Source of the DNA: Verrucomicrobia bacterium S94
GTDB taxonomy: Bacteria > Verrucomicrobiota > Kiritimatiellia > Kiritimatiellales > Pontiellaceae
DNA length: 64,000 nt
Direction of reading: 5' to 3'
Assembly: GCA_004299845.1 (NCBI GenBank)
Contig: CP036201.1
Location: 2,790,001 to 2,854,000 of the forward strand
The stretch's first letter is position 1. Each line of letters opens with the position of its first letter. Positions 23,584-34,159 of this stretch are shown piece by piece. The position numbers and the translations under genes were made by a program. The notes beneath the pieces are model-generated. The model searched no databases. It worked only from the letters and a program-made list of their open reading frames with translations, and was not told where the DNA came from.

Positions 23584-23697
23584 GCCCCCCCTGTCAAAAT
23601 CAAACCGAACCCCGAACTGACAAATCGGAAAAATCAGCAAGATCAAACTATTTTTAAATGGATTGGAAAACTGAAGGAAGGAAACCGGAAACCAAAA

Positions 23698-23715
23698 ACC
23701 TAAAACTTAAAACCT
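23698..23715. repeat. CTAAAACTTAAAACC-type low-complexity repeat
   Basis: The tract around 23690-23730 repeats AACCTAAAACTTAAAACC words. The 18-base core at these coordinates is identical, in reverse complement, to 48243-48260 inside hsdM, where it is translated. It lies downstream of the histidine phosphatase gene, in the non-coding interval shared with the riboswitch region. Confidence 0.6.
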
Positions 23716-23753
23716 AAAACCTAACACCCCTTTTAAAGTTTTCAATTCACATT

Positions 23754-24329
23754 TCAGATTTCATTCAGCTTCCGCCAGCCCGCCGTCTCAATATACGGCA
23801 GACTCCGGTGACGCCCCGCACCCAGATTAAGAAACGCCGTCTGCAGCAGCATCAGCGGATCGCCATGCGAAACCAGCACAATGGTCTTTCCCGCAAACTG
23901 CTTTTCCAGCGACTCCACCACCGCCCACATCCGCCGCTGCACCGCAACCGAGCTCTCCGCCCCATGATACACCTGCGCCGGATCAAAAACATCCTGCTTC
24001 CAGGCCCGGGAATAATGTTCATGACGCTTCCCCTCCCAATCCCCGAAAAACCGCTCCCGCAGCCGCACATCAAAAACAATCTCCCCGCACCCCAGCTCCG
24101 CCCGGATAATCTCCGCCGTCTCCCGCGCACGCCGGAAATCCGAAGAAAAAATCAGCGTCTCCGCATCAAAATCCGACGCCGCCACACTCGCCCGCACCTG
24201 ACGCCGCCCCTCCTCCGTCAAACCATACTCCACCGTCCCCACCGCCGGATCACTGACAATAATGCCCTCCACATTCGCCCGGCTCTGCCCATGACGAAAT
24301 CCATAATAGATATTTTTCAACGCGTCCAT
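23754..24329 (-). CDS. Histidine phosphatase family protein
   Basis: A 191-residue cytoplasmic enzyme. The phosphate-accepting histidine is in GFRHGQSRAN (about residue 13). A second arginine is in SSDFRRARETAEII, the acidic residue in RLRERFFGDWEG, and the second histidine in VLVSHGDPLML. This is the phosphoglycerate mutase-like clan. It could act on a cobalamin precursor (CobC-like), attractive beside the B12 operon, but also on sugar phosphates or proteins. The riboswitch operon is in the same direction but downstream of a separate control region. Confidence 0.85.
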   Translation of the reverse strand: MDALKNIYYGFRHGQSRANVEGIIVSDPAVGTVEYGLTEEGRRQVRASVAASDFDAETLIFSSDFRRARETAEIIRAELGCGEIVFDVRLRERFFGDWEGKRHEHYSRAWKQDVFDPAQVYHGAESSVAVQRRMWAVVESLEKQFAGKTIVLVSHGDPLMLLQTAFLNLGAGRHRSLPYIETAGWRKLNEI

Positions 24330-24386
24330 GCACAGACTATGGCCAAATCCCCAATAATCAGCAACTCTTCCACGAATCAGGAAGTC

Positions 24387-24539
24387 ATACCAAACGTTAA
24401 AACGATCCGGTATAAATTTGATCCCTCGCAGAGACGCTGAGGACGCAGAGAAATTCAGTCATAAAGGTTGAGTTATGACACAGTTGCTCTGCGCGGAATA
24501 ACGCGGTCGTTAAGACCGGAATGTTTTAGTAAATGGTAT
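24387..24539. mobile_element. MITE-like palindromic element, copy 2
   Basis: A 153-bp copy of the element, starting ATACCAAACGTTAAAACGAT and ending GTTTTAGTAAATGGTAT. The centre differs from copies 1 and 3 (GGTTGAGTTATGACACAGTT). Its right end supplies the first base of the TGA stop of the adjacent minus-strand gene, so it probably truncated that gene. Confidence 0.8.
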
Positions 24540-24787
24540 CAGATCTTCGCTACGGATTTTCCGCTCGACGTATTCAACAACTCAAGCTTCAGCAACCCAA
24601 CATAATTGCCCGGTTCAATCAAGCCCCGAGCCTTCGTATTCGCAATACAGCTTGGCCGGATCATCCCCGGCTTCTCCTTCAGCGCATAATCCTCGGATAG
24701 CACCTCATATTCGTACCGGCCATTCTCTTCGAGCACATCGACCCGGTCGCCCGTGCACGCCCCGTTCCTGCTTTTTCTTAGAACCAT
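24539..24787 (-). pseudogene. Truncated gene of the helicase operon (possible DUF2357-like fragment)
   Basis: An 82-residue reading frame that begins 17 bases after the helicase stop and ends exactly at the edge of a MITE-like element, whose last T forms the TGA. The peptide (YEYEVLSEDYALKEKPGMIR, then NTKARGLIEPGNYVGLLKLE, ending SVAKI) looks like the start of a larger protein. It faintly recalls DUF2357 (McrC-like restriction partner) proteins, a weak match made from memory. If so, it is the remnant of a fourth component of this operon. Confidence 0.5.
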
Positions 24788-24804
24788 GCAGTTTCGGCAA
24801 AAAA

Positions 24805-27800
24805 TTATGGTCGAGCTTCCTCAAATAGAGCGGCAGGCATAAAGTGCTCCAACTCCCAAATCATGCTAATCGGGCGATCGCCCTCATAGGAGAGCAGCTT
24901 GGAAGCTGGTCCGAGAAAAATAAACGGAGCCGCCTCGCCTTCCACTTGTTTTTCAACGCGTCCAAAAAATAAAATCGTATAGCCTCGTTCCTTGAAGTGA
25001 ATATAGTTCTGTCCGGTCGATGAGATCTGGGTCGCCGTAGATTGACTCTCCCAATGCATCTGGTTACGACTGATCGGATAATCTTTGTAAAGTGTCGTCG
25101 GAGAGAAATCCTGCTCGACCTTTCTAAAAGTTACAAGGTGAGCATAAACCTTGAGTTCTTTATTGTGATAGACGCCGACTCCCATGGGCCCCGGTTTTTC
25201 TATGCTGTTTAACCGAAGCGCTGCCTTTATCTCATGCGAACCATAGGCGGCATGCAGTTTGAGGTCACAAGAGAACGGAAGGTCGATATCAAAAAACGGA
25301 TACGGCTGATTCCTGCGGCGCCACTCCGAAATTTCAGCAGCATCCTGGACTACAGTTACGTTGCGGCTCCACTTTTCCAAAGAATCCGAAAAATTTCTAA
25401 CCCCAACGTTTCCGCCTTTTTGTCCCCAGAACAAATAATGAAGCGATGTGCCGGAACAACCATATTTCTCTTCCGTCTCGCAGGCGACCCTGTTCTCCGC
25501 GATGTCCTCTACCATCTCAAGAAGCTTCGGATCCGATCTCAGAACCAAACGAGTGAGAGCCTTCCTAGCCACGACCAGATCAGGATCTTTTGGTGCTGGC
25601 AATCCTTTGGCAACGGCTTTCCACTCTGACCAGCTTTTCTTTTTCAATACGGCAATCGGCGACAGGCCCGTTTCATCAATAAAATTACCAAATGTGAGGG
25701 GCTTGTAATAATGGCAATCCCACGTCTGAATGGTCTCCGGAATAAAATTTTTCAGATCACTCAGCACCGTCTTGATCTTCTTCAGAATTCGTTCGCGGGC
25801 AATACGCTCGAGAATGATACTGCAACCCGCCGGTAAATTTGGGAAATCGTTTTCTATTTCACGATCGATTCGTTGCCTATTTCGAGAAAGAAGTGCGGTG
25901 AATTTTGTATCCAATCGGTATTTCCGATGCGTTTGCCCCACGAAATCGAGAACGGTTAAACAGTCCTTGCCAGGAGCATGGCGCAAACCCCGACCTAACT
26001 GTTGAAGAAATACGGTTAAACTCTCCGTTGGTCTCAAAAACAAAGCCATGTTCAACTCGGGAACATCCACGCCTTCACTCAAAACATCGACCGCAAACAG
26101 AAAGGATAAATCACCCTCTCTTAAAGAGCGCATACGTTGAGCACGTTCTTCTCTTCCCGTATCCCCTAGGATCACCGCCGAAGCAATTCCTGCATCATTA
26201 AAGCACTTTGCCATATAATGAGCATGCTTCCGGCCCGCGCAGAACCCAACGCCTTTGACCCCGCTCAAATCAGGCTGATACTTATGAATCGCTTGTAAAA
26301 TCAGATCCACACGTTCCTTGGCACGAAAATCATCACCAGTATAAATATTTTCCAGCTCTCGTTTATCATACCTCCCGTTCCGCCAAAACCGTTCTTCATC
26401 CAAATCAATATTATCGGTGACCCCAAAATAGTGAAATGGACAGAGAAGTTTTTCTTCCAAAGCTTCGGGCAATCTGATTTCAGCGGAAAACCTGCCATCA
26501 AAATCGGGAAGAATTAAGGATCCATCCATTCGTTCAGGGGTCGCCGTAAGCCCAAGTAATATGTTCGGTTTTAAATGATCAAAAATCGGACGATAACTCG
26601 AAGCAACCCCGTGATGCGCTTCATCAACGATAACAAACCGGAAATAATCATCACCAAACTTCAGCCACGGTTTCCTCGATTTTAAACTCTGCACTGACGC
26701 AAAAACATGCTCCCACTCCGTTGGCTCTATCCCATCAACGAGAAGTTCTCCAAAATTCTGATCTCTGAGTACCGTTCTAAAGCAGGCCAGAGCCTGCTCG
26801 AGAATTTCCTTCCGATGAACCACAAATAAAAGACGCTCTTTCCGTCCTGTTTGCTCGCAGTACCGCTTATAGTCCAACGCTGAAACTACAGTTTTCCCAG
26901 TCCCTGTCGCCGCGACAACAAGGTTCCGCATCGAGCCATTTTGACGCGCCGCCGCCAGTGCCTCCAGGATTCGTTCCTGAAATGGACGAGGCGTAATCTC
27001 CGCAAAGAATTGTGGCCCGCCAGTGGCTCGCTGTTTAAAGCGGTTAATCGCACTTCTAAATCGATCGAAATCCTGTTTTCCCGCAAAAGGTTCAAATTCA
27101 GGGCTCTCCCAATACGCAGAAAAATCCGCGACGAAGCGTTCGAGAATATGCGGCATATCTTGCGCGGTAACTTTAACTGTCCACTCTAAACCTTGAGTCA
27201 TCGCAGAATGCGACATATTAGCCGACCCGATATAAGCCGTAGAAAACCCACTATTCCGCACAAAATGATATGCCTTCGCGTGCAGTCGAGTGCCCCCCGT
27301 ATCGTATGAAACTTTTATACTGATGTTATCTTGCTCCGACAACCACTCCAAAGCCACCGGATCGCTGGCTCCCATATAACTCGTTGAAATAATGCGGACA
27401 GGAATATTCTCTTTAGCGAGACGCTCGAACGCCGGCATCAGAAGCCGGAGCCCTGACCACTTGATAAACGAGATTAAAATATCAACCCGATCGGCAGTTA
27501 GCATTTCGGCACGAAGTTCGTGCTCCAAAGGAGGATCCATTCCCTGCCCCGTTAACAGAGCACTTGTCGAAAGGGGTGTTTTCGGGCGCGTAAATGCAAC
27601 CGGAGAACTTTTGACCTCCGTCAACAGATTCTTATCATCAGCAAGAACCGCATGCCGTTGCACATAATCAAGCCCATCAGTTGCCGATAACAACTCAAGT
27701 AATCGATTGATAATATCAACGCGCTGATTTTTTTTTGCCACGCGCAAGGCTTTACCGAGAACCTGCCCCACGAACTGCGCATAAACTTGCGGAGCTTCTT

Positions 27801-27909
27801 CATCATCAATCTTCCGCAATACAGGTTTTAAATCCGGATGGGCATCAAGCAACTCACGCAGCTCTTCATCCAAAACCTGCTCATAAATTCCCAACGCCAA
27901 ATTATGCAT
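24805..27909 (-). CDS. PLD-DEAH helicase with C-terminal DUF3427
   Basis: A 1034-residue protein from ATG 27909 (GAGG nine bases upstream; a TTG at 27915 is less likely). The N-terminal third has a phospholipase D-type nuclease motif, RLHAKAYHF followed by IGSANMS (the HxK...N set). A superfamily 2 helicase follows: NLVVAATGTGKTVVSAL, IVDEAHHGVASSYRP, LLGLTATPERMDG and the motif VI region QQLGRGLRHAPGKDCLTVLD. The last roughly 350 residues are DUF3427. Its start overlaps the NUDIX stop by 8 bases. HNH and NUDIX genes upstream point to defence or DNA repair. Confidence 0.85.
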   Translation of the reverse strand: MHNLALGIYEQVLDEELRELLDAHPDLKPVLRKIDDEEAPQVYAQFVGQVLGKALRVAKKNQRVDIINRLLELLSATDGLDYVQRHAVLADDKNLLTEVKSSPVAFTRPKTPLSTSALLTGQGMDPPLEHELRAEMLTADRVDILISFIKWSGLRLLMPAFERLAKENIPVRIISTSYMGASDPVALEWLSEQDNISIKVSYDTGGTRLHAKAYHFVRNSGFSTAYIGSANMSHSAMTQGLEWTVKVTAQDMPHILERFVADFSAYWESPEFEPFAGKQDFDRFRSAINRFKQRATGGPQFFAEITPRPFQERILEALAAARQNGSMRNLVVAATGTGKTVVSALDYKRYCEQTGRKERLLFVVHRKEILEQALACFRTVLRDQNFGELLVDGIEPTEWEHVFASVQSLKSRKPWLKFGDDYFRFVIVDEAHHGVASSYRPIFDHLKPNILLGLTATPERMDGSLILPDFDGRFSAEIRLPEALEEKLLCPFHYFGVTDNIDLDEERFWRNGRYDKRELENIYTGDDFRAKERVDLILQAIHKYQPDLSGVKGVGFCAGRKHAHYMAKCFNDAGIASAVILGDTGREERAQRMRSLREGDLSFLFAVDVLSEGVDVPELNMALFLRPTESLTVFLQQLGRGLRHAPGKDCLTVLDFVGQTHRKYRLDTKFTALLSRNRQRIDREIENDFPNLPAGCSIILERIARERILKKIKTVLSDLKNFIPETIQTWDCHYYKPLTFGNFIDETGLSPIAVLKKKSWSEWKAVAKGLPAPKDPDLVVARKALTRLVLRSDPKLLEMVEDIAENRVACETEEKYGCSGTSLHYLFWGQKGGNVGVRNFSDSLEKWSRNVTVVQDAAEISEWRRRNQPYPFFDIDLPFSCDLKLHAAYGSHEIKAALRLNSIEKPGPMGVGVYHNKELKVYAHLVTFRKVEQDFSPTTLYKDYPISRNQMHWESQSTATQISSTGQNYIHFKERGYTILFFGRVEKQVEGEAAPFIFLGPASKLLSYEGDRPISMIWELEHFMPAALFEEARP

Positions 27910-28312
27910 AAACAAGAACCTCTTTAACTAAGTGTTCAACAATTGGAATATCCGCCGGCGCCCATTTCAGCAGAGTCCACTCAGATGGGACGACCCACTT
28001 TGAATCTATGTGCTCTGTAAGCGAAATTAATGGCCGCTCAACGCACTCATGAAGAAACGGAGTTAACCGAATGGTTCCAAAATCATACTCATGAGTTGAA
28101 TCAGGAAGACGTTTTAATTCTCCAACGGTCCACGAAAGCTCCTCTCGTATCTCTCGCCGCAATGCATCTTCTGCATTTTCACCCGGCTCCACTTTTCCAC
28201 CGGGAAATTCCCAGAGCAACGACTGACTCTTCCCGACAGGCCTTTGCGCGGCAAAAAACAACCCTTTCCGATCAGCTAACACAAGACAAACTACATGGAT
28301 CAACTTTTTCAT
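27902..28312 (-). CDS. NUDIX hydrolase (MutT-like)
   Basis: A 136-residue NUDIX protein. The Nudix box is complete: GGKVEPGENAEDALRREIRE followed by ELSW. It also has LFFAAQRPVGKSQSLLWEFP, typical of MutT/8-oxo-dGTP-type (deoxy)nucleoside triphosphate pyrophosphohydrolases. It is co-transcribed: 13 bases after the HNH gene and overlapping the helicase start. It may sanitise nucleotides or produce or destroy a nucleotide signal for the neighbouring nucleases. Confidence 0.88.
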   Translation of the reverse strand: MKKLIHVVCLVLADRKGLFFAAQRPVGKSQSLLWEFPGGKVEPGENAEDALRREIREELSWTVGELKRLPDSTHEYDFGTIRLTPFLHECVERPLISLTEHIDSKWVVPSEWTLLKWAPADIPIVEHLVKEVLVYA

Positions 28313-28325
28313 CTTTCTGCAACCG

Positions 28326-29186
28326 TTATGCCACCAACTTCTCCCGATGTTGTTCTAAACAACCCTGATCGGGACAAAAGCGTTTGGGTTTCCTCAACGG
28401 CTTTCCCTCAAAAGCTGAAAACTGCGTTTTAAATGCCTCGTTGGTGTAAAACTCCTTCAACACCGGACTGAAGATCATACGGTAATCTTCATCGAATGAA
28501 ATTAGGTGTTTGTCGAAGGCGGCATCATAGGTCGCCGATAAACACAAACCATTGTCTGGATTCATTCTAACTTTTTCATCTTCAGCCCAGCCAACGATAT
28601 GACTCGCACGCAAAACTTCAGGAACATTCAAACCGGTAATGCAACACTCGTGATTATATTGCTCCAAAATCATTTTGCGGAAAAATCGCTGTCCGATCCG
28701 GGTCTTTACTTCACGTACGGCGTCTTTTCCCGCTTTGGTGTTCAAATCCAGATCCAGATCAGCAACCAACAGTTCTGCAGAATCAATGTCTTGCTCAGCC
28801 AGCTTCTCTCTGATCTCGCCCGGATTTTTCCGCCCATCTCGATAAATTTCCCACATTTTCTGTTCGTACAGATAGATCACTAAAAATTCGCGGTAACTTC
28901 TTAAAGCAGCGGAACAAAAATTCTGTTTCCAATAACTGGAGGGCTCCTCCCCATTAAAAATTCCATGTTGCCCGAGTTTCTGATGCTCCAGAACCAACTG
29001 ATATAAGCTTTGAATATGTGCTGCAGATGAAATTTCCCAAACACTACTGGCGTTCAATTCTTTCGGAGCCTTCCGCCCGAGAATAGAATCTAAAAGGTCG
29101 ATCGCCCGAATATACGACGATGCCCGATTACTCCCTTCGGCATTTTGCTCCTTAATGAAAACTGAAAACAAATCCCTGAAATTCAC
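28326..29186 (-). CDS. HNH endonuclease
   Basis: A 286-residue protein from GTG 29186 (AGGGG seven bases upstream; TTG 29192 is an alternative). The C-terminal part is an HNH_2-type nuclease: ECCITGLNVPEVLRASHIVG, then NPDNGLCLSATYDAAFDKHL. The helical N-terminal half probably recognises DNA or a partner. It is the first gene of the HNH / NUDIX / PLD-helicase operon, so it may be the cutting effector. Confidence 0.87.
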   Translation of the reverse strand: MNFRDLFSVFIKEQNAEGSNRASSYIRAIDLLDSILGRKAPKELNASSVWEISSAAHIQSLYQLVLEHQKLGQHGIFNGEEPSSYWKQNFCSAALRSYREFLVIYLYEQKMWEIYRDGRKNPGEIREKLAEQDIDSAELLVADLDLDLNTKAGKDAVREVKTRIGQRFFRKMILEQYNHECCITGLNVPEVLRASHIVGWAEDEKVRMNPDNGLCLSATYDAAFDKHLISFDEDYRMIFSPVLKEFYTNEAFKTQFSAFEGKPLRKPKRFCPDQGCLEQHREKLVA

Positions 29187-29234
29187 TGCCAACCCCTAAG
29201 GCTATGTTTAAGCAGCTTAGAGAAGCTCATCCCA

Positions 29235-29253
29235 ATTTCCAAGGTTTGGAAAT
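29235..29253. promoter_or_regulatory. Inverted repeat upstream of the HNH operon
   Basis: ATTTCCAA and TTGGAAAT form a perfect 8-bp inverted repeat with a GGT centre, about 50 bases before the HNH start. It could be an operator for this operon. A loosely similar TTTTCCAACC...GGGAAAA occurs near 31805, so a dispersed repeat is the alternative. The rest of 29187-29455 shows nothing else clear. Confidence 0.35.
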
Positions 29254-29455
29254 ACTTTCTTTTGCGATGAATCAACACTGCTTCAATCGGAGCAAAAAAA
29301 TTCCTGCAAATCAGCAATGTTATGCATTTACTGCTGACCAGGTGCCGCCCGAACCCCATTTTTAATTCACTTCGTTCGATAAGATATCCCCCTGCGAATC
29401 ATCTTCTGCCCAATCTCGTTTTAGTACCTCTTGCGCATCTTTGTGACTAAACATT

Positions 29456-29671
29456 CTATAGTTGATTCCTGATTTCCTTGACGACACGTCGATAATATTG
29501 AGCCATATTGCGGGCTTCGGAGGCGTCACACACCTCAAGAATGTAGTCCTCGACATAACCGGATTCATGATATTCAGCCGTGCGCTCGTAATCCTCGGCA
29601 CGGCATGTAAGCCCATCGATGATTTGACCCCAGTCATCCACTTCCAACGCAATAGTCACTTTCTTTTTCAT
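29456..29671 (-). CDS. Small conserved-looking hypothetical protein
   Basis: A 71-residue protein from ATG 29671. The acidic, helical sequence VTIALEVDDWGQIIDGLTCR, EDYERTAEYHESGYVEDY and DASEARNMAQYYRRVVKEIR resembles small proteins of unknown function I have seen in many bacteria. It has no signal or membrane segment. It is separate from the HNH operon (270 bases away) and from the membrane protein upstream. Confidence 0.55.
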   Translation of the reverse strand: MKKKVTIALEVDDWGQIIDGLTCRAEDYERTAEYHESGYVEDYILEVCDASEARNMAQYYRRVVKEIRNQL

Positions 29672-30026
29672 CCGCACAGTTCTAGCGCAGATGGAAATGT
29701 CGGTCTACAGACTAGAAGTCTAATATTCCATTATTTTTCCAATTCGTATGGATATGAAAAAAGGGCCCTTGACAACACCCTTCATGCAAAATCAAAGAGG
29801 ATCTGAGAGTACCTAACTCTGTGGCTTATCGCTCACGTTTGGTCCATCGACAATTGCTGCCGCACTATTGACCGACTTGACCAACTGAAGTATTCGGTGG
29901 ATTCATCACGGCCATTGGAGGACATCGAAAACGGCCCTGTAAGAAATAGTTGTTATGACATCCGGAGCGCAATCTTGCTTCCGGAAACCGAAATCCAGTT
30001 AAACAAAGTCATCAACAGACATCAGT
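29672..30026. other. Intergenic region without a recognised gene
   Basis: A short imperfect inverted repeat (CCGGAGCGCAA...TTGCTTCCGG, near 29962-29983) is the only structure seen; it could end transcription of the membrane protein gene on the minus strand. I see no tRNA or reading frame that looks coding. Confidence 0.4.
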
Positions 30027-31553
30027 CTATGCAATGCCTTGTTCATCCAAATCTTGCTCATCAGTCATAAATGGGTTTGTAATCATAAAGATGGAACGAG
30101 CGAGGAGATACCAGACGAATACAGGTCCCAAAGCGGCTCCCCAGATAATCCGGGAACTCAGAGATATACCGGATTCCCCTAATACACGCGTCATGGCCTG
30201 AGTAAGCTGATCTTTGGTTATTCGGCGTCTAAGATAAGCCACAGTGAAGGGCCAGAGACTTGATGCTGTTTTAGCGGCAACGCCACCCGACGCCACATGG
30301 AGAGCATCAAATTCGGGTAACTGGTCAACTAAACGATCAAAGTTATCCTCTGTCACTTTTTCAAGTTCAGCTTCTGAATAGGTCGAAAAATCCACCATGG
30401 GATGATCACCAAAATATTCCTGCATTTCATGTGTGGTAAGAATTGGAATATCAGGATATCGCATCAAGGCATGCTCTATCAGCGAAGGATCAGCTGCTGC
30501 CTTTAGCGACACCGCTATTTCCTGCCCCGATTCAAGATTAGTAAAAACAATATCTGACCCGGGAAAAGTTCGATCCTCATGTAGCGCCGCAACAATTACA
30601 TCACCATCAAAATTTTCCCTGTGTTCAATTAGCTGTTCAAACATCTCGCCTTTAACAAGATTTACATCACCAGCCAATTGATCTGGCGTACGTCCCTCAA
30701 AATAAGCCTGTATCTCCTCCACGGAAGCATCACCCAGCTGTTTAGAATAGGCCCGACGAATGGAATCGAGGAAAACATCCCCAAGCGGTCCATTCAACTG
30801 ATCCGTATTTCCGCTAACCAACGTAGCCATAGCAGCAAAAGAAAACACCTCACCACGAATAGCTGGATCATAAACCGCTATCTCACCCATAAGCCAAGAT
30901 TTGAGCCGACCTCCTACCAAACGAATATTCTTCGGATCACCAAGCTTCTTAATGAATTTCATTTGAAATTTGATCAACTTTTTGAACCTAGCAATTAAAC
31001 GTCCTAACGCTCCCTGTGGGATCCGGAAACTACCCGCCCGTTGCACCTCTTCAAACCCTGTCCAGAAAAGCAGACCAACAAAGTTCGTAACGATTAGCTC
31101 AGACATGACCGTTACCGCAAAAGCTCCAGGAATCAGTGATAACAGAGCAAAGGCTCCATTAAGCAGCATGCGAAATATGTAAAGAATAATCACCGCAGTT
31201 CCTGCCAGAAGCCCAAAATACTTCCAGATATCGTTAACATCCTTGATCCGGATTCCAACATGTCTGGCCACGGAGAAAGCCATCCACGCCTCCAGAGCCA
31301 TCGACACAAAAACACCGATCCCGAGCTTTCCCGGAAGTCCTGCAAGAACTGCATTTGCGATAGAAACTTGAGTAATAGTGGCAAGGATCTGACGCTCTGT
31401 ATCGCTTTGAACCTGAAAAACCTTTTTGAACGGTTCGAATACAAAATCTCGAATAGATGCCGTTTCGAATAAGCGCTGAACAAGAGCTTTATTTTGGGAA
31501 AGCCACTCTTTGGCAACATCCGTATCTCGATATCTCTCGATACGTTTTTTCAT
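30027..31553 (-). CDS. Membrane protein with possible nuclease-like domain
   Basis: A 508-residue protein from ATG 31553 (AGGTG just upstream; a TTG at 31586 would add 11 residues). Hydrophobic stretches near the N-terminal third (ILATITQVSIANAVLAGLPG, YFGLLAGTAVIILYIFRMLL, FALLSLIPGAFAVTVMSELI) and one at the C-terminus (ALGPVFVWYLLARSIFMI) suggest membrane insertion. Residues about 310-380 (NLVKGEMFEQLIEHRENFDG, then FPGSDIVFTNLESGQ and IAVSLKAA) have the acidic-x-Lys spacing of a PD-(D/E)xK nuclease fold, but this is a weak visual match. I do not recognise the family. Its neighbours suggest a defence or toxin context. Confidence 0.5.
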   Translation of the reverse strand: MKKRIERYRDTDVAKEWLSQNKALVQRLFETASIRDFVFEPFKKVFQVQSDTERQILATITQVSIANAVLAGLPGKLGIGVFVSMALEAWMAFSVARHVGIRIKDVNDIWKYFGLLAGTAVIILYIFRMLLNGAFALLSLIPGAFAVTVMSELIVTNFVGLLFWTGFEEVQRAGSFRIPQGALGRLIARFKKLIKFQMKFIKKLGDPKNIRLVGGRLKSWLMGEIAVYDPAIRGEVFSFAAMATLVSGNTDQLNGPLGDVFLDSIRRAYSKQLGDASVEEIQAYFEGRTPDQLAGDVNLVKGEMFEQLIEHRENFDGDVIVAALHEDRTFPGSDIVFTNLESGQEIAVSLKAAADPSLIEHALMRYPDIPILTTHEMQEYFGDHPMVDFSTYSEAELEKVTEDNFDRLVDQLPEFDALHVASGGVAAKTASSLWPFTVAYLRRRITKDQLTQAMTRVLGESGISLSSRIIWGAALGPVFVWYLLARSIFMITNPFMTDEQDLDEQGIA

Positions 31554-32053
31554 GTCACCTGATACTTTTTGATGAATGCTTTCCAATTCACAGCAACCCC
31601 GACAAATGCCCTTTACTCACAAAGCATATAAGGTCATTGGCGAACGACACAATTAAATACTAACTTTTAGAGCCTACCCGCAAATCTAAGCCTCTCCGCC
31701 TTTTCCACCCTTCCCCCGCGCCCCCATCCCTATAACCCGGCAGAACGGCCCCGCTCGAATGACGGCGTTTCACGGCAAACTCTGCAGCTTTGCGAAAATC
31801 GTTTTCCAACCTTTATGGGAAAAGAAAATGAAGCTTTTTACAGGGCCGGGGTCCCTCCCTGCAGTCCGGTTGAATGATGTTGCGCACGCGCGCCCGATGG
31901 GGCATCGGGCCTACAGTCATGGGAAAAACCGTTCTGCAGGCCACGGATGTGACCCAAACAGAATTCCCGGTATCGAAACGATGCAGAATGCCCCTAAATT
32001 AAACATGATACCAGCCGGTAAGTGCCGCTGTTCCGGCGATTTCGGGGTTTGGT

Positions 32054-32075
32054 CGTACCGCAGGCGGCTCGCCTG
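32054..32075. repeat. GTACCGCAGGCG palindromic repeat
   Basis: GTACCGCAGGCGGCTCGCCT followed by GC is an imperfect palindrome. The same unit, with TCC instead of GCT in the middle, occurs in reverse orientation at 54492-54514 inside the DUF5107 gene, where it is translated. Confidence 0.55.
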
Positions 32076-32103
32076 CTGATCCATCGGATGGTCTGAAAGA
32101 AAC

Positions 32104-32121
32104 GGCGCTCTGGACAGGATT
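32104..32121. repeat. Partial duplicate of the tRNA-Arg 3' end (possible att remnant)
   Basis: The 18 bases GGCGCTCTGGACAGGATT are identical to 32216-32233, the 3' end of the tRNA-Arg gene, 112 bases away in the same orientation. Direct copies of a tRNA end are typical of integration sites of genomic islands, but no integrase gene is in the window. Confidence 0.5.
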
Positions 32122-32214
32122 GTTTCACCCCTGCGGACTTTCGCAAGCTCAAGTTTCACTTCGCTTCGCTTGTGTCGAACCGTCGGTTCGAATCTGACAT
32201 ATCACCATAAAAAA

Positions 32215-32291
<77 letters not shown>

Positions 32292-33563: not shown

Positions 33564-33639
<76 letters not shown>

Positions 33640-33644
33640 TTTTA

Positions 33645-33675
33645 AAACCCTCATAATGAACGATTATGAGGGTTT
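33645..33675 (+). terminator. tRNA-Lys terminator
   Basis: AAACCCTCATAAT and ATTATGAGGGTTT form a 13-bp stem around a five-base loop, with TCTTTC after it. It is repeated identically at 33992-34022 in the duplicated unit. Confidence 0.75.
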
Positions 33676-33757
33676 CTTTCTGCTCACACTTCATCTACGG
33701 AAAAATCTCCGCCTCAACCGTGCAGTTTCGGGCGGTGTAGCGATCGCTTACCCGAAG

Positions 33758-33986
<229 letters not shown>

Positions 33987-33991
33987 TTTTA

Positions 33992-34022
33992 AAACCCTCA
34001 TAATGAACGATTATGAGGGTTT
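33992..34022 (+). terminator. Duplicated tRNA-Lys terminator
   Basis: Identical to the hairpin at 33645-33675, carried along in the tandem duplication. It follows the interrupted tRNA-Lys copy. Confidence 0.7.
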
Positions 34023-34159
34023 CTTTCTGCTCACACTTCATCTACGGAAAAATCTCCGCCTCAACCGTGCAGTTTCGGGCGGTGTAGCGATCGCTTACCC
34101 GAAGGGAAGCGATGGGCATCTGAGCCGGAAATGAAAGCCCATGCTTCGACGCATTTGAA

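Follow-up and report, generated by a model that had tools for sequence, protein, structure and literature searches.

A MITE-like element adjoining the stop codon of a McrC-type gene remnant in Verrucomicrobia bacterium S94

Genes and gene remnants at the locus

We analyzed a 64,000-nucleotide stretch of the genome of Verrucomicrobia bacterium S94 (assembly GCA_004299845.1, contig CP036201.1, forward-strand positions 2,790,001 to 2,854,000), hereafter called the window. Between a histidine phosphatase gene and a helicase gene, both on the minus strand, it contains a MITE-like element and an 82-codon open frame whose TGA directly follows the element (Table 1). No RNA family was detected at the gathering threshold within positions 23600-25400.

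Table 1. Coordinates of the features discussed, numbered from the first nucleotide of the window.
Feature	Position	Strand	Remarks
Histidine phosphatase gene (PF00300)	23754..24329	-	neighbor on the far side of the element
Phosphatase upstream flank	24330..24384	-	like the same place in G009 to within ~1 nt of the duplication
Target-site duplication, left copy	24385..24387	.	TCA
MITE-like element	24388..24538	+	151 bp; ends TACC...GGTA; imperfect terminal inverted repeats of ~26 bp (length by eye)
21-bp scar, end of an IS110-family element	24466..24486	+	same junction in copy L036
Target-site duplication, right copy	24539..24541	.	TCA; on the minus strand, the TGA stop of the 82-codon frame
82-codon open frame	24539..24787	-	ends ...SVAKI; TGA at 24541-24539; apparent chimera of two remnants, not a gene
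Remnant, N-terminal part of a DUF2357 / PD-(D/E)XK (McrC-type) gene	24548..24760	-	71 codons
Putative remnant, C-terminal end of an McrB-like gene	24771..24803	-	33 nt; frame other than that of the DUF2357 remnant; LPKLHGSKKK
PLD-helicase-DUF3427 gene (PADLOC mREase_IV)	24805..27915	-	uninterrupted

An intact homologue of the open frame was sought and its length compared with that of the frame. A total of 71 codons match the start of a protein of ~750 residues; in four relatives the identity is 56-68%. Matches to the frame were obtained in 12 of 288 genomes of the class, which are an even draw from a larger group. Besides S94 itself, these comprise ten with open frames of 751-805 codons and one with a frame of 255, and none of these 11 contains a homologue ending at the same residue as the 82-codon frame. 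The suggestion of the preliminary description that the 82-residue product looks like the start of a larger protein is therefore borne out. The intact homologue in one relative (G022) contains PF09823 (DUF2357, E 5e-40) and the signature of a nuclease, PF04411 (PD-(D/E)XK, E 7e-28). Both domains are absent from the fragment, which gives no match to any Pfam or PADLOC family at E 0.001 and does not include the nuclease half.

The homology to the DUF2357 protein begins at 24760, ~25 codons into the intact open frame, and stops at 24548, that is, the fragment is cut at both ends. A search of the S94 genome with the other 653 aa of the G022 protein gave no match; this search was run without an internal positive control, the N-terminal part having been found here by other searches. 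The DUF2357 protein has no match in PADLOC, even at E 10, and on plasmids 11 records have DUF2357 matches, all below 60% identity and none covering 80% of the query. The fragment is a McrC-type remnant and not a member of that group, and a restriction-type function would not be expected of a 71-codon scrap that has neither nuclease half nor partner.

At its start, the 82-codon frame has ~9 residues that lie outside the DUF2357 homology and overlap a match to an McrB-like protein in another frame. In three relatives (G022, G005 and G010), a gene for such a protein is located upstream of the DUF2357 gene with one gene between them, namely DUF3800 in G010 and, in G022 and G005, an ORF that we take to be REP-type transposase-like; in a fourth (G035), the DUF2357 gene is at a contig end. 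The term McrB-like is our assumption from the place of the gene: its PADLOC name is PDC-M26A, and Pfam gives only AAA_22 and nSTAND3 below the cut-offs for the G022 protein and nothing for that of G005. In S94, only the 33-nt scrap remains in the place of an adjacent partner, beginning at most 2 nt from the helicase stop. Its LPKLHGSKKK is identical in G005 and G010, with a match of 10-11 residues and E values of 0.02-0.1 alone. Weak on its own, the match combined with an order and position as in the intact loci points to an McrB-like remnant. The ATG of the 82-codon frame falls inside this scrap, so the frame would be a chance chimera. When the McrB-like protein of G005 was searched against the S94 genome at E 0.001, no match was obtained, and the same search finds it in G040 and G022. 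In G022, a stretch of 39 residues from the McrB-like C-terminus (77% identity; G022:C2:1795305-1795421) also occurs on the 3' side of the intact DUF2357 gene, ~0.8-0.9 kb past its end, which would fit an McrB-like/DUF2357 pair prone to partial duplication and loss.

The helicase gene encodes ResIII, Helicase_C, PLD and DUF3427 domains, and its C-terminal end is like that of an 82%-identical homologue in G015, the only full-length match among those listed by E-value for 39 relatives. The DNA after the helicase stop differs in G015, where by eye it looks like the tail of a methyltransferase gene, and G015 has no DUF2357 match. In the four relatives whose loci were read, the DUF2357 gene is not beside the helicase gene; it follows the McrB-like gene in three and sits at a contig end in one. 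The preliminary description had regarded the 82-codon frame as the last gene of a helicase operon that the element could have disabled. The first idea does not agree with these gene orders, and with the helicase uninterrupted and ending like its G015 homologue, nothing seen suggests the second.

In G017, a tRNA-Arg gene lies directly before the phosphatase gene; here it is found at 32215-32291, and the helicase, NUDIX and HNH genes lie between. In addition, window positions 24333-32209 have no match in a 19-kb stretch of G040 that aligns at both sides. Together, these observations place the remnant at the phosphatase-side edge of an ~8-kb stretch which those relatives lack at this place. The same stretch contains, besides the helicase, a 519-residue protein (30027-31586) matching the PADLOC candidate defence family PDC-M72B (E 6e-21), and its NUDIX gene corresponds to PADLOC PDC-S07. 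At its edge, ~90 bp beyond the tRNA-Arg gene, there is a ~20-bp copy of the 3' end of this tRNA (32102-32121), possibly an attachment-site repeat of an integrated island. In G040 (L081, 15056-15132), the tRNA-Arg gene is located between the phosphatase and tRNA-Lys genes, and its orientation relative to the phosphatase is the reverse of the one shared by the window and G017.

The element family and its target site

The repeat at 24387-24539 was confirmed, and the window holds three copies in all. In the S94 genome, the family gives 43 BLAST matches and has at least ~39 copies, four copies having been found as two pieces each and 40 of 63 candidates having been scored; 0.00 chance matches to its core motif are expected (100 shuffles). 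The terminal inverted repeats read ATACCAAACGTTAAAAC... vs ATACCATTTACTAAAACATTCCGG..., and the length ranges from 135 to 153 bp over 30 copies. The family is thus multicopy, and the element carries no transposase of its own. Four copies of ~1.4 kb, opened from repeat ends in the same genome, have an IS110-type gene inside the MITE, and no transposase of a non-IS110 kind bounded by the MITE ends was recognised among these four. A non-systematic literature search did not recognise any account of this family.

The 3-mers immediately outside TACC...GGTA are the same on both sides in 31 of 36 copies, and nearly all of them are TNA (TTA, TAA, TCA, TGA); when left and right flanks of different copies are compared, the agreement is only 24%. 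This count covers 36 of the ~39 copies, with L040, L042 and L043 omitted (an end absent or altered, or missed by the script), and the anchors were taken from alignment positions, except for four placed by hand (L008, L012, L019 and L034). Among five extra copies with both ends, read by eye, L082-L085 match and L086, which has a mutated end, does not. It follows from the identical TNA 3-mers that the family makes a target-site duplication of fixed length, 3 bp, at TNA. We assume that this duplication resembles that of IS5-family groups such as IS1031.

The copy studied here has TCA at both sides, a match expected by chance at ~1/64 in random DNA and ~1/4 between two TNA sites. The TGA at 24541-24539 is duplicated target DNA, so the in-frame stop codon predates the insertion and was most likely already present when the MITE landed. 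If the ends are defined from the other copies, the element supplies none of the three bases of this stop codon. The preliminary description, in which the last T of the element forms the TGA and the gene ends exactly there, is correct in that the element directly adjoins the TGA; the T at 24539, however, belongs to the duplicated TCA and not to the element.

Whenever an element duplicates TNA, its target reads as a stop codon on one of the two strands (TAA and TGA directly, TTA and TCA when reversed), and the finding of an element that ends a gene at its stop therefore needs no causal reading. For annotation, this means that a duplication can simply preserve a stop codon which was there before. 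Two of 30 MITE copies (L023 and L031) terminate at the stop codon of a selected ORF. With ORFs of at least 70 or at least 100 codons, 21 or 25 copies fall outside ORFs, and the TNA sites there predict 1.83 or 1.55 such cases; this comparison gives no sign of a preference of the family for real stop codons (p 0.56 and 0.46). The choice of ORFs was greedy and classed the present copy as inside an ORF, supposedly via a long antisense frame. A cruder control without a gene filter pointed to an excess (6 of 30 copies vs 5.4% of TNA sites ending a frame of at least 100 codons) but was set aside and not relied on, since selection eliminates insertions that fall within genes.

Another copy in the window (33771-33922) was found at the junction of a 188-bp direct duplication (33577-34111, 100% identical) that covers most of a tRNA-Lys gene. 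It lies inside the second tRNA-Lys copy and interrupts that tRNA, with TTA on both sides; the intact tRNA-Lys has TCA at this place.

Within its core, the element differs from the other copies in a stretch of 21 bp, which matches the end of an IS110-family element exactly. Much of the IS110 is still present in L036, and nearly complete IS110 elements occupy other core positions in L082-L085; the transposase domains PF01548 and PF02371 were detected in L082 and L085, the two copies that were domain-tested. By eye, the IS110 directly follows C(A/T)GAG in all five junctions read (L036 and L082-L085); L037-L039 do not have that end. Most likely, the window copy is a MITE that once held an IS110 element, nearly all of which has since been lost. 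With somewhat more doubt than confidence, we suggest that the MITE family may be a dispersed landing pad for IS110, which would enter after C(A/T)GAG, probably by means of a guide RNA, and then decay or be lost, the scar in the window recording one such visit. If true, the targeting of repeats by IS110 would extend to a transposable MITE, and MITE ends could possibly carry IS110 to new places.

Order of events

Between the duplication and the phosphatase ATG, the 55-nt flank resembles the phosphatase upstream region of G009, and none of 300 shuffles scored as well, by a narrow margin (43.9 vs a maximum of 43.0). For the other relatives, the numbers of shuffles as good (of 300) were four for G001, 12 for G017, 172 for G005 and 253 for G040; thus, of the five relatives compared, among nine with the phosphatase gene, G005 and G040 give no support. 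We also considered this flank as part of an intact DUF2357 gene or of the DNA downstream of one. Against four intact genes, each with 500 nt beyond, it scored 28.9-35.9 vs shuffle means of 29.4-30.4 and maxima of 36.2-40.3, and this candidate was rejected. When the G009-like flank was followed past the stop codon, scores as good came from 50 of 500 shuffles and from 44 of 500 randomly chosen places, and the last two codons of the frame (K and I) could be either diverged gene sequence or flank.

The account that we prefer, and hold to be quite probable, is that the 82-codon frame is what decay has left of an McrBC-like gene pair (of type IV restriction type), that the TGA was already in the joined DNA and that the MITE landed later. 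Deletions would have taken nearly all of the McrB-like gene, the intergenic DNA and ~25 codons from the start of the McrC-like gene, and a deletion would also have taken everything in the latter after codon ~95. What was left would have been joined to the phosphatase upstream flank, with the frame by then running into the TGA. The MITE, which inserts at TNA with duplication, would later have landed on this TCA/TGA, and through the duplication the gene side would have retained its stop codon, the frame being unchanged by the insertion. We infer this order of events, including deletions before insertion, from the flanks: the same TCA on both sides indicates a clean insertion into DNA already joined. 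The preferred order leaves one coincidence without explanation, that is, the deletion junction lies at most ~20 bp from the MITE. No genome carrying the empty site was encountered.

That coincidence would be accounted for if two MITEs in direct orientation, one in the gene or next to it and one next to the phosphatase gene, had recombined and deleted the DNA between them, making the present copy a hybrid. In favor of this, a chance agreement is seen in 24% of pairings of two TNA sites. The recombination is the costlier course, since it needs this ~1/4 chance match and an earlier stop in the gene as well: the gene-side TCA would already have been an in-frame TGA, and the gene dead before the event. 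Moreover, the deletion on the McrB side needs a separate event anyway. We consider such a hybrid unlikely.

The preliminary description proposed that the element truncated the gene, and its fuller form would be that the MITE entered an intact gene, supplied the stop and truncated it, the DNA beyond being lost later. The homologues are really longer and the frame stops right at the element, as this proposal would have it. However, the TGA is duplicated target older than the insertion, with TCA on both flanks, and an intact gene would have had to hold an in-frame TGA at that target. None of the three stop bases comes from the element with its ends as in the other copies, and a deletion after the insertion is costlier because the far-side TCA would then be there by chance (~1/64). 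Truncation by the MITE is accordingly very improbable. A reading of the 82-codon frame as a short functional gene naturally ending at this TGA is scarcely credible: an ATG is present in an open frame of 93 codons, but this ATG lies within the out-of-frame McrB-like remnant, no other match among the 288 genomes ends near residue 82, and Pfam and PADLOC place the product in no family at the threshold given above.

Under the preferred account of decay followed by insertion, the locus would be the trace of an McrBC-like system that this lineage has lost. Overall, we see here ordinary genome decay with an instructive coincidence, and the MITE is most likely not the cause of the truncation.

Comparison with known systems

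The insertion sequences that enter REP sequences include IS110-family members. Entry of insertion sequences into repeated extragenic (REP) sequences is described in one report (PMC1525189), and, like the elements described there, the IS110-type element here sits in several copies of a repeat. Unlike them, its target is a MITE core and not a REP, and the window copy keeps only the 21-bp end.

According to PMC11090510, McrC consists of DUF2357 fused to a PD-(D/E)xK nuclease, and the DUF2357 and nuclease architecture of the G022 homologue is like this McrC of McrBC-type type IV restriction systems. Also as in McrBC, the gene is downstream of an AAA-type gene in three of the four relatives' loci read. 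In S94, unlike McrC, only 71 codons are left, without nuclease half or partner.

Bacterial MITEs, as characterized in a review (PMC2229807), have terminal inverted repeats and target-site duplications. The window element is like them in these respects: it is 151 bp long, multicopy and transposase-free, with imperfect inverted repeats of ~26 bp and a 3-bp duplication.
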